DNA from: Minisyncoccota bacterium
GTDB lineage: Bacteria; Patescibacteriota; Minisyncoccia; JAHIHE01; JAGLIN01
Length of the DNA: 42,486 nt
Direction: 5' to 3'
Assembly: GCA_023142995.1 (NCBI GenBank)
Contig: JAGLIM010000014.1
Span: 1-42,486 of the forward strand
A program made the translations under genes and the position numbers. This document shows positions 4,943 through 36,094 of this stretch, one piece after another. Numbering within the stretch: position 1 is the stretch's first letter; each line of letters opens with the position of its first letter. The notes beneath the pieces were generated by a model. It saw only the letters and a list, made by a program, of their open reading frames with translations, ran no database searches and had not been told where the DNA came from.

Positions 4943-4962
4943 TTATTTTTCTTAAATTGATT

Positions 4963-5980: not shown

Positions 5981-6520
5981 TTAAATTTTAGATTTATTTT
6001 TTTTCTTATATATAATTGCAATAGTTAGAATTAATATTATAAGAATTGCGCCCAATAAATAACCAGATATGTTTTTAAAATAATCTTTCCAGTCTAGCTT
6101 TTTAATAACTTTTATTTCTTTCGGATTATCTTCTTTTTGACTAACAACAACTTCTAGCTTCATTAAACTTGTTACTTCTTTTTCTGCTCCATCGTCTAAA
6201 ACGCATAAAGTACATTTGGTATTATAAAGACATCTTTGATCTGAAACGGTTTTTGTTCCATATCCATTTATTGCGCAAAAGTTAAATTCTCTTTTTTCCT
6301 GTCCAACAAAAAAACTCCATCCCGATGCTTCGGATCCATCTGGAAATATACAAATTCCCTGTTCTCCTCCAGCTGTTTCTCTTGTGTCATATTCATATCC
6401 TAGATCAACACAGTAAGCTGCTGCTGGATTACGCATTCCAGTTTCCATAGCAGAAATATGAAATAACGGAGTCAATAAAAATATAATTGCTACTGCTATA
6501 ATGATTTTTTCATATTTCAT
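5981..6520 (-). CDS. DUF333 domain membrane protein
   Basis: The start at 6520 (MKYEKIIIAV, 179 residues) is preferred over 6574 because it begins directly with a signal or anchor helix (IIIAVAIIFLLTPLFHISA). Residues 31-74 match the DUF333 pattern: NPAAAYCVDLG, GGEQGICIFPDGSE, then GWSFF. That domain is a small Cys-containing module of exported, putatively haemolysin-like proteins with no proven function. A second Cys cluster (CLYNTKCTLCVLDDG) follows. A C-terminal helix at about 150-170 with a Lys-rich tail predicts a type I membrane topology. It lies 10 bases upstream of the Cys-motif protein, so the two are probably co-transcribed and may work together at the surface. Confidence 0.82.
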   Translation of the reverse strand: MKYEKIIIAVAIIFLLTPLFHISAMETGMRNPAAAYCVDLGYEYDTRETAGGEQGICIFPDGSEASGWSFFVGQEKREFNFCAINGYGTKTVSDQRCLYNTKCTLCVLDDGAEKEVTSLMKLEVVVSQKEDNPKEIKVIKKLDWKDYFKNISGYLLGAILIILILTIAIIYKKKNKSKI

Positions 6521-16679: not shown

Positions 16680-17432
16680 TTAAACAAATTCTATTTCATC
16701 TCCTGTTGATAATTTTTGAATTCCGAATATCAAGTGAAATTTTGCTAATGTCGGAAAATCAACACAGTGCATAGGATAAAGATGTTCAGGCTTTTCTGCT
16801 TTAAAATATTCAATAGTCCTATCTACTGTTTCTTGATCATTTTGGAACAAATGAAATCCTCCGATCACAGCGTGCAATTTCTGACCAGTCACTTCTTTAG
16901 CATATTCACAGATATTGCAAATACCACAATGAGAACAACCAGCAATAACAATTGCTCCATTTTTAGACCTTATGGCTATTGCAGAATCATCAAGCATTTT
17001 ATCATTTTTATACATCCCCTTCTCAAAATTATTTTTTCTCGGAATTTCACCCAAATAGTAAACATTATCAGAAAACTCCAATGATCTTTTTGAAGTAATA
17101 ATTTCAAAATCAGATTTTATCTTACGAGATTCATTTAAAGGCAGTTTATTGATTATTTCAGGATGAATAATTAACTTCTTCTTATCTTTGAAATTATGAT
17201 GTTGTATTCCACCAGCATGATCCCAATGATAGTGAGAGAGAACTACAAAATTTGTTTCTTGAAGGTTGATACCTAATTGTTCAGCATTATGTTTATAAAT
17301 ACCAGTATGACCTGTATCAAAAAGTATATTCACATCATTTATTTGAACAAAAGCAGAAAAGCCCCACTCAGCCAAACATACTTCTGCTCCTTTATAACTT
17401 AATTGATTTTCACATAGAATTGTTATTTTCAT
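16680..17432 (-). CDS. MBL-fold metallo-hydrolase (COG1237 type)
   Basis: A 250-residue metallo-beta-lactamase-fold enzyme. The zinc motif HxHxDH is H67-Y-H69-W-D71-H72, preceded by the strand NILFDTGHTG. The C-terminal half has GAIVIAGCSHCGICNICEYA and HAVIGGFHLF, the sequences typical of the COG1237 subgroup, which includes archaeal 7,8-dihydropterin-6-yl-methyl-4-(beta-D-ribofuranosyl)aminobenzene 5'-phosphate synthase. A final H in YPMHCVDFPT completes the metal ligands. No signal peptide, so cytoplasmic. Family assignment is firm. The methanopterin-type reaction is unlikely in this organism, so the true substrate is unknown. Confidence 0.92.
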   Translation of the reverse strand: MKITILCENQLSYKGAEVCLAEWGFSAFVQINDVNILFDTGHTGIYKHNAEQLGINLQETNFVVLSHYHWDHAGGIQHHNFKDKKKLIIHPEIINKLPLNESRKIKSDFEIITSKRSLEFSDNVYYLGEIPRKNNFEKGMYKNDKMLDDSAIAIRSKNGAIVIAGCSHCGICNICEYAKEVTGQKLHAVIGGFHLFQNDQETVDRTIEYFKAEKPEHLYPMHCVDFPTLAKFHLIFGIQKLSTGDEIEFV

Positions 17433-17470: not shown

Positions 17471-18646
17471 TTATGCTTCAGAAATTACATCAAATACACC
17501 AGCTTTCGCGCTTCCTGTAATAGTAAGAGCATATACTTTTTTTGCTATATTTTGCGTAATAATCTTTTTAGCTGTTTCATTAAGTGTTGCGCCAGAGCCA
17601 GTCACATCATCAATAAGCAAAATATTATTATATTTTTGCGCATCATTTACAATAATTGTTTTTTTTGCATTTAACATTCTATCTTCTATTTTCTTCAAAC
17701 TTTTTTGTTGCACTGGAACAAGATTTTTTACTTTTGTAAAAAAAATCTTTTCACAAGGAATATTTAGCTGTTGAGCAATAAATGTCATAAGCTGTGTTTT
17801 TCTGGCAACTGTTGGAGGAATAAATGCTATACAATCAATATTATATTTAGAAATAATTATATCTGCGCTTTCCTGAATTTTTTCTACAATTTTTCTCATC
17901 AATACTCTATTTGCGCGACCAGATTTTGCTGTTCGCACCATTTGACTTAATGCTGTTTTACCAAAAACTGGCAAAGCATCAAAATCTCGATGAAACAATT
18001 TTTCTATAAATACTTCATTGCCAAAAACATATTGTAATTTATCAGTAGCATCAATCATTAATACTCCGCTTTTTTTATTATAATATTTTTCCCGCATACT
18101 AACATATTCTTGCGCAAGATTCTCAATATCTTTTCTACCAGAGGTATGTTCTGCCCAATATACAAAACCTTTTATACCTTCCAACAATCGTCCTTCTGGA
18201 GTTGTATATACATAATATTTTTCAATAATTTCCTTTTGCTCTGGTAAAAATAAACTATTATTTTTTTGTGATATATACGTATAAACGATCTTTTTAGGCG
18301 GTGTACCAAACTTTTTGATAATATCACTATCAATGAAATTTTTAATGTATTTCTTTGCCGAATTTACGCTTATACCCCACACACGTGCGAAATCATCTAT
18401 ACTCATTTGCTCAATGTGTTCAAAAAGAAAAGTAACTGCTTTATTATTTATAGTAAGTTTATATTTTACACCAGAACCATTTTTCACAGTCTTTTTTAAA
18501 ATATCATCAATAATAAGTTCACGCAGTATTTTCCCTATACTCTCACGAGAAAGTATGCTTCTGTTTTCAATATCAGAAATAGCGAAAACTCCTGTTTCTA
18601 GCAGAATATTTACAATGATTTTATGCTGTTCATTTTTACCTGTCAT
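17471..18646 (-). CDS. HTH-phosphoribosyltransferase transcriptional regulator
   Basis: The start at 18646 (MTGKNEQH, 391 residues) is chosen because a consensus promoter lies inside the longer frame that begins at 18682. TATAAT ends 7 bases before this ATG, so the message would be leaderless. The N-terminus is built of winged-helix-type segments (IVNILLETGVFAISDIENRS, then MSIDDFARVWGISVNSAKKY). The C-terminal half is a type I phosphoribosyltransferase domain with the PRPP loop NILLIDDVTGSGATLNETAK at about 340-358. The architecture recalls B. subtilis PurR, where a PRT domain senses PRPP. Two palindromes upstream (18712, 18783) are candidate operators. The regulatory role is inferred; catalytic salvage activity is not excluded. 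Confidence 0.85.
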   Translation of the reverse strand: MTGKNEQHKIIVNILLETGVFAISDIENRSILSRESIGKILRELIIDDILKKTVKNGSGVKYKLTINNKAVTFLFEHIEQMSIDDFARVWGISVNSAKKYIKNFIDSDIIKKFGTPPKKIVYTYISQKNNSLFLPEQKEIIEKYYVYTTPEGRLLEGIKGFVYWAEHTSGRKDIENLAQEYVSMREKYYNKKSGVLMIDATDKLQYVFGNEVFIEKLFHRDFDALPVFGKTALSQMVRTAKSGRANRVLMRKIVEKIQESADIIISKYNIDCIAFIPPTVARKTQLMTFIAQQLNIPCEKIFFTKVKNLVPVQQKSLKKIEDRMLNAKKTIIVNDAQKYNNILLIDDVTGSGATLNETAKKIITQNIAKKVYALTITGSAKAGVFDVISEA

Positions 18647-18653
18647 ATTACAT

Positions 18654-18682
18654 ATTATACTATAGATAAATTTACTTGTCAA
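18654..18682 (-). promoter_or_regulatory. Consensus promoter of the HTH-PRTase gene (leaderless start)
   Basis: On the minus strand TTGACA (18682-18677), 17-bp spacer, TATAAT (18659-18654), then seven bases to ATG. The spacer contains ATCTATAGTA, one arm of the palindromes at 18712 and 18783, so a bound regulator would sit on the promoter. Confidence 0.85.
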
Positions 18683-18711
18683 TACTAGTTTATTAGCTTA
18701 AATAAAGTAAA

Positions 18712-18738
18712 ATCTATAGTACGTATTGTACTATAGAT
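18712..18738. promoter_or_regulatory. Palindromic operator candidate 1
   Basis: ATCTATAGTAC and its exact inverse GTACTATAGAT flank a 5-bp spacer GTATT. It is about 30 bp upstream of the -35 box of the HTH-PRTase gene. Confidence 0.75.
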
Positions 18739-18782
18739 ATAAAACACACAAAACACTGCTTTGTCGGCTTAAATAAGCTAAA

Positions 18783-18808
18783 ATCTATAGTACACATTGT
18801 ACTATAGA
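18783..18808. promoter_or_regulatory. Palindromic operator candidate 2
   Basis: ATCTATAGTAC, spacer ACATT, GTACTATAGA. It lies exactly 71 bp from candidate 1 within a duplicated segment (CTTAAATAA...AAAATCTATAGTAC at 18698 and 18769), and 34 bp after the Nudix stop codon. Confidence 0.75.
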
Positions 18809-18841
18809 CTTTTATTATTTTTCACAAAAATTGCTTTGTAT

Positions 18842-35644: not shown

Positions 35645-36094
35645 CTAACCATTTAATTCTATCACAAACTCTTTTGCATCATCCAAGTCTTTTTCGTCTG
35701 GTTTGTTTTTGTTTATGCCACCAATTAATTTAAATGGACCATAATCGTCAAATCCTTTGCAAGAAAATTCACCTGTTATATTAAATCCTTTTTCTGATAA
35801 TTGTTTTTTAAGTGCTTTATGACAAATTGATATAGGGAAAAGTCCTCTCGTTGAAAAGATAAATGCTTTTTTATTATTTTGACCTTGCAATTTGGAAACA
35901 AGATCTAATAAGCTTTTATGATGTTTTCCAGAATAAATTCCAGAGCCAAAACCGATCAGGTCATATCTAGATAATTCATCTGTTTTAATTTCATTTGGTT
36001 TGACTAATTTTGCATCAAGAGCTTCGGCCATTGTTCTTGCGATCTTTTCGGTATTGCCGTTATGTATAGAAGTGTAGATGATAAGTGTTTTCAT
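35645..36094 (-). CDS. Flavodoxin-like protein
   Basis: A 149-residue flavodoxin fold. The FMN-phosphate loop is IIYTSIHNGNTEKIA at the N-terminus, then YDLIGFGSGIYSGKHHKSLL and KKAFIFSTRGLF, the family's isoalloxazine-contact loops, and the C-terminal EFSCKGFDDYGPF. This is an electron-transfer flavoprotein of the flavodoxin domain group that includes protoporphyrinogen-oxidase-like HemG relatives, but its redox partner is unknown. The ATG overlaps the stop of a degenerate SDR frame (ATGA at 36091-36094), suggesting it was once translationally coupled to that gene. Confidence 0.92.
   Translation of the reverse strand: MKTLIIYTSIHNGNTEKIARTMAEALDAKLVKPNEIKTDELSRYDLIGFGSGIYSGKHHKSLLDLVSKLQGQNNKKAFIFSTRGLFPISICHKALKKQLSEKGFNITGEFSCKGFDDYGPFKLIGGINKNKPDEKDLDDAKEFVIELNG

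Follow-up and report, generated by a model that had tools for sequence, protein, structure and literature searches.

An apparently self-regulating winged-helix phosphoribosyltransferase gene with a triple 71-bp operator array in Patescibacteria

Bacillus PurR combines a winged helix with a phosphoribosyltransferase (PRTase)-type domain and has operators near promoters; GfcR of halophilic archaea joins a DNA-binding domain to a PRTase-like domain. Here we consider a gene encoding two winged helices and a PRTase domain, preceded by palindromic operators, in a Minisyncoccota bacterium (GenBank assembly GCA_023142995.1, contig JAGLIM010000014.1); the whole stretch analysed, 42 486 nt, is called the window below. 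Autorepressors and PRTases of the ComF/ShosT type are familiar in kind, but their combination is apparently undescribed: a literature search, mostly without subscription journals, found no description of the family, in line with an earlier note on this DNA that had called the regulator undescribed in its lineage. The reading we favour, with a probability of about 0.6, is a solitary, self-contained, autorepressed PRTase switch for which the gene itself makes up nearly the whole regulated set. Comparison of relatives supports a match between the DNA-binding part of the protein and the operators at its own putative leaderless promoter.

The PRTases most similar to that of the window protein come from other kinds of system. 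ShosT, of the ShosTA toxin–antitoxin system, has PRTase and pyrophosphatase activity and perturbs purine metabolism, according to a review (PMC12593503). Genotoxicity of Escherichia coli RqlH is reported to require its PRTase domain and to be mostly abolished by a substitution in the pocket for phosphoribosyl pyrophosphate (PRPP), the PRTase domain by itself being insufficient for toxicity (PMC4670107); phage defence by a DprA-like protein with a PRTase has been reported as well (PMC9122126). The window protein shares the PRTase fold branch of ShosT, but has the domain fused to DNA-binding winged helices; no DprA-like partner of the ShosT type was seen among the scanned window neighbours, and none recurred in 81 loci (judged by eye). 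PsyrT/RqlH is a RecQ-like helicase with a C-terminal PRTase, whereas the window protein begins with winged helices and matched no helicase family, its gene being solitary and operator-bearing; it does have conserved PRPP-pocket aspartates of the PsyrT/RqlH kind (D346 and D347), and their equivalence to RqlH D663 is suggested by the motif. With ComF/GntX it shares the best fold match, to which it adds winged helices and operators. From Bacillus PurR it differs in its PRTase branch and in that the main target appears to be its own gene. The GfcR model (NF045507) did not match the window protein, and two relatives matched it weakly (E 0.0064 and 0.0098; 16.0 and 15.4 bits, cut-off 300).

These affinities were drawn from an AlphaFold2 model built from 71 sequences (mean predicted local distance difference test score, pLDDT, 83.4; predicted template modelling score 0.66) and from profile scans. 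The best fold matches of the PRTase part (residues 193–385) were Helicobacter pylori ComF (7p0h, Z 14.3, root-mean-square deviation 3.0 over 159 residues) and ShosT (8zvd, 8zvc and 8zvb, Z 11.6, 11.5 and 9.0, the best with a deviation of 3.3 over 160 residues); PurF, APRT and other PRTases scored Z 8.9 or less. PADLOC gave PsyrT (E 1.7e-15, residues 5–379 on positions 364–684 of a 689-position profile), ShosT (E 7.8e-7) and retron III-A PRTases (E 1.5e-6). The NCBIfam comF model matched at E 9.8e-8, its 32.2 bits lying far under the cut-off of 233.55; Pfam PRTase-CE, with 25.6 bits, fell just under its cut-off of 27. A search of solved structures by sequence gave a chance-level match (E 0.73) for the single protein, and the profile matched winged helices only. 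Judging from the predicted fold, the PRTase domain is a member of the ComF/ShosT branch, unlike that of PurR. The earlier note was right about a PRPP loop joined to winged helices; its likening of the protein to PurR did not hold, as no PurR model appeared at E ≤ 1 in the Pfam or NCBIfam scans. In the PRPP loop, D346, D347, G350, S351 and G352 are invariant in all 71 aligned sequences, as are R282, Q285, K305, Q314, K315, R323 and N326 elsewhere in the aligned family; therefore a ligand-binding or catalytic site is predicted to be retained. The conserved PRPP-loop residues make PRPP sensing, also proposed earlier, a possibility.

The features of the locus, in window positions, are the following:
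17471..18646, minus strand: gene of the double winged-helix PRTase protein, 391 amino acids, ATG start, TAA stop
17492..18070, minus strand: PRTase domain of the ComF/ShosT branch (predicted), residues 193–385
17585..17620, minus strand: PRPP-loop motif LLIDDVTGSGAT, residues 343–354
18263..18457, minus strand: winged helix 2, residues 64–128, counterpart of the only winged helix in distant relatives (matching MarR/ArsR-type domains, Z about 9)
18461..18634, minus strand: winged helix 1, residues 5–62, confined to the close clade (AlphaFold model, pLDDT about 62–80)
18641..18667, minus strand: operator O3, starting at −21 from the ATG, degenerate, spanning the −10 box and the start codon
18654..18659, minus strand: −10 box TATAAT, within O3, with geometry shared by nine aligned regions
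18668..18711, minus strand: O2–O3 spacer, 44 bp, with a repeated element and the −35 box
18677..18682, minus strand: −35 box TTGACA
18712..18738, minus strand: operator O2, starting at −92
18739..18782, minus strand: O1–O2 spacer, 44 bp, with the same repeated, weakly conserved element
18783..18809, minus strand: operator O1, starting at −163

Two palindromes of 27 bp upstream of the gene match ATCTATAGTAC-N5-GTACTATAGAT and are separated by exactly 71 bp: O2 is an exact match and O1 has one mismatch (0 expected from 100 dinucleotide-preserving shuffles). A repeat search of the window added a third, degenerate copy, O3, exactly 71 bp further and in the same register. The pair of near-identical operators described in the earlier note is thereby confirmed in sequence and spacing. 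The arm which that note placed between the −35 and −10 boxes is also present, but it belongs to a third operator, complete in itself, which continues from this left half across the −10 box to the start codon; the region it delimited, ending at 18808, has to be extended, since O1 ends at 18809. The gene start was assigned to the ATG at 18646–18644 by agreement of homologues (the list of open reading frames has a TTG at 18682). The −35 and −10 boxes with their 17-bp spacer, and the 7 nt left before the ATG, fit the leaderless promoter proposed earlier; because the −10 box and the ATG are only 7 nt apart, the transcript is probably leaderless. O3 overlaps this promoter, so that the gene carries its own operator on its own promoter, as an autorepressor does. 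The upstream operator copies were also considered as additional promoters and rejected, good −35 boxes being absent by eye.

The array was compared among nine sequences, the window and eight close loci (55–71% identical) which a search of named genomes had found in Moranbacteria/Moraniibacteriota, Paceibacterota or Parcubacteria. In two of the eight, relatives of the same family and another genus (71 and 70% identity), the region from O1 to the ATG aligns with the window without gaps. In all nine sequences operator copies start at −163, −92 and −21, the outermost copy of L049 being off by one base; the third copy of L044 is in register, yet comes fourth by score, below a chance match. O2 is clear throughout. 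Pairwise identity is 0.61 for O1, 0.75 for O2 and 0.80 for O3, with 0.53–0.56 in the spacers, 0.39 just upstream of O1 and 0.33 expected from chance composition. The two arms of the operators co-vary (12 cells with both sides changed, where shuffling gave 5.6 and none of 500 shuffles reached the observed value); for 11 dyad pairs in 18 sites, standard pairs make up 85.9% versus 79.6% after shuffling, and covariation is 0.236 versus 0.146 (again 0 of 500 as high), which is suggestive, the shuffle control ignoring relatedness. Within a genome, units 1 and 2 resemble each other more closely than they do across genomes (by permutation, p 0.002 for the operators and 0 of 20 000 for the spacers), and the same altered arm occurs in two or three copies within L048 and within L049. 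The genes on the 5′ side differ among most of the nine sequences. Both spacers contain, at equal phase in the nine sequences, an element resembling TTAnATWAGCnAAAAAA.

We searched the nine genomes with a 27-position operator model (O1 of L045 and of L046 were excluded from it). In the window genome only O1, O2 and O3 matched at E ≤ 8e-5, the next match having E 0.21, and a pattern search of the same genome, of the kind advised in the earlier note, gave no convincing site besides these three. The strict two-site 71-bp pattern matched in the window genome only, among 379 genomes of the phylum. Only the L045 genome showed a clear additional place (G611:C3, L166, about 35930–36027): two sites 71 bp apart lie there without a regulator gene, 5′ of an ATPase-like gene (by eye), and may be a relic or a target in trans. 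In the wider family, scanned with patterns designed on its own operators, the operator was present at the gene's own start in 49/49 genomes (a set without the genome of L085), and no second place was found in 46/49 (reversed patterns gave 0 matches). The three extra sites were (i) at a duplicate of the gene that has an internal deletion (L145), (ii) before a membrane-protein gene (L146) and (iii) between other genes (L147). In L145 (1..5001, G549:C5) this second copy keeps its own operator while the middle of the protein is deleted, an indication that promoter and gene move or duplicate together as one unit.

The wider family comprises 231 confirmed stretches in a species-level genome set; a search with the single sequence had found no relatives. 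The best 80 of the 231, taken as the locus set, are mostly from Patescibacteria, with a few from Bacteroidota (including Ekhidna lutea), Saganbacteria and Margulisbacteria; among 379 genomes sampled from the phylum, 19 contain a relative. Phage origin was rejected, no relative having appeared in the viral contigs scanned. Distant relatives (about 31–42% identity) are without the first winged helix, and no neighbour gene beyond generic ones recurs in the 81 loci (clusters judged by eye). Most of the 71 relatives examined have at their own start an operator of 29 bp, built from four half-sites of 7 bp that are arranged as a forward pair and a reversed pair about a single central base. This unit of 7 with a centre of 1 scores 0.769 versus about 0.48 in both shuffles and neighbours; little or no excess over controls is seen with units of 5, 6, 8 or 9. 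A grammar score above 27 was reached by 57/71 loci versus 13/419 control promoters, and the 99% level of the control by 41 versus 5 (L109, with no open reading frame called, was omitted from the promoter counts); the top-scoring control promoter is itself a true operator, before a NUDIX-like gene in L089. In relatives with one winged helix, the four equal half-sites would be compatible with a pair of dimers bound to opposite faces of the DNA, which we offer as a suggestion; in the close clade each chain has two winged helices and the palindrome has unlike inner and outer parts.

Half-sites of the wider family come in four dialects: GTTCC, GTTGA, GTTTA and GTATA. Residues of the recognition helix were counted in 62 of the 71 sequences (alignment A4), after hand-chosen omission of near copies or doubtful starts (L055, L063, L089, L094, L096, L103, L107, L111 and L116). 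At the position aligned to residue 98, arginine is found in 18/18 proteins with GTTCC operators and in 0/44 others; phenylalanine or tyrosine in 13/15 GTTGA proteins; histidine, serine or alanine in 17/20 GTTTA proteins. On the tree of the PRTase part the dialect requires 21 changes, the residue class 19 and both jointly 24. The link of GTTCC with arginine is borne out by 7/7 independent pairs (sign test 0.016); that of phenylalanine or tyrosine with GTTGA over GTTTA (13/15 versus 3/20) has only two independent supported pairs. In the Bacteroidota relatives L071, L098, L100, L108 and L121 the operator core differs slightly (ATTT/TATT-like), and the helix position is occupied by histidine.

In two pairs of loci it looks as if operator and winged helix had been exchanged as one block. 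The PRTase parts of L058 and L076 are 92% identical and the winged helices 53%, with GTTCCT and GTTGAC operators, respectively; for L077 and L114 the figures are 89 and 53%, with GTTCCC and GTTTAC. Both pairs show a sharp step in DNA identity at about codon 50. Upstream of position 4944, L095 has partial GTTTAC/GTATAC half-sites with a full GTTCCT operator immediately after them, a possible footprint of a dialect switch. Operators at own starts make a DNA-recognition code legible, with one helix residue predicting part of the half-site, and the natural cassette exchanges serve as a test of it.

Under the autorepressed-switch reading, the winged helices would bind O1–O3 cooperatively and shut the gene off; 71 bp being about seven helical turns, contact on the same face or wrapping of the DNA is plausible. 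The PRTase domain would be switch and output in one: a ligand, for example PRPP or a nucleotide, would alter DNA binding, and the domain would itself be an enzyme or effector whose level has to stay low. With the regulated set essentially its own gene, the protein would therefore be a PRTase controlling its own dose rather than a classical global regulator. The autoregulation proposed in the earlier note is well supported by comparison, as the sites stay with the gene in 9/9 close sequences despite differing upstream neighbours, operator and recognition helix change jointly in the wider family, and the window genome has no other convincing site. Overall, what that note observed proved stronger than it had stated, and its interpretation was partly supported.

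Several points weigh against this reading. The O1 copies of L045, L046 and L049 are degenerate, with 5, 5 and 4 dyad pairs, respectively, out of 13. Within the close clade the four-by-seven grammar does not reach significance; O1 or O2 scores highest, alone or tied, in only 3/9 sequences. Degenerate targets below the threshold of the model may exist. Sites adjoin other genes in the genomes of a few relatives (L089, before the NUDIX gene; G567, G586 and G611), and some relatives may have small regulons. Finally, we infer repression over activation only from the overlap of O3 with the promoter.

One could take the idea of an autorepressed switch a step further, to a one-gene counterpart of a toxin–antitoxin system; we hold this possible, though we would not bet on it. 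The PRTase would be a self-harming effector, and the fused winged helix would replace the antitoxin by nearly silencing its own promoter, until released by titration (by invading DNA, an anti-repressor or nucleotide imbalance). If this were true, the repeated exchange of operator and matching winged helix would be a diversification of the immunity-like kind known from phage repressors, by which each copy ignores decoys and is not cross-repressed by copies coming in, and the triple 71-bp operator would be the tightest version of the lock.

A repressor that senses PRPP as Bacillus PurR does, and that controls nucleotide genes as well as itself, would account for the invariance of the PRPP-loop residues D346, D347 and G350–G352 in 71/71 sequences. 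There is a NUDIX gene upstream in the window, and L089, besides the operator at the regulator's own start, has a second GTATAC operator, starting near 6022 and perfect in all four half-sites, which separates the regulator from a NUDIX-like gene downstream; the L089 genome is the one with a second site among the five with a match in the GTATAC group. We nevertheless consider such a repressor unlikely: a further convincing site in the window genome and a second full site in 46/49 relatives' genomes are lacking, neighbours are not conserved, and PurR models did not match. NUDIX motifs were counted in 3/153 adjacent genes versus 4/526 other neighbours, a lower bound, since in L089 and L046 at least the motif missed NUDIX-like genes that can be recognised by eye; a NUDIX link to the regulator was rejected, these counts being too low to claim it.

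ComF being a competence protein, the regulator could also be tied to DNA uptake. H. pylori ComF is the best fold match (Z 14.3), and the comF model did match, at 32 bits against 233; but competence genes do not recur as neighbours (by eye) and the window genome has no operator elsewhere, which makes a role in uptake quite improbable. That the repeats stem from an incidental duplication in tandem, or serve as sites for another protein (replication iterons, for example), with the neighbouring gene uninvolved, is hardly credible: the units do resemble each other in the spacer too, as duplication predicts, and the L045 genome has its gene-less 71-bp array, yet the array accompanies the gene in 9/9 close sequences with differing neighbours, its spacing is constant while the spacers diverge, the palindromes co-vary, and the matching operator of distant relatives changes with the recognition helix.

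If the autorepressed-switch reading holds, the gene would represent a widespread family of solitary PRTases that regulate themselves in Patescibacteria, bacteria in which little is known of regulation. The strict 71-bp triple operator offers a clean test case for cooperativity between distant binding sites, and the link to PRTases of the ShosT/RqlH type makes the question of enzyme, sensor or effector directly testable.

As to the genes nearby, a metallo-beta-lactamase-fold gene (window 16680–17432) lies 38 bp 3′ of the regulator; its match to the anti-Pycsar protein Apyc1 is below threshold (E 3.3e-4, 20.6 bits, cut-off 50). L042 and L043 have a common downstream gene at +1203..+1949 from the regulator start, ZIP-type metal transporter-like by eye, and a related ZIP-type-transporter-like gene is located near the regulator in L047.
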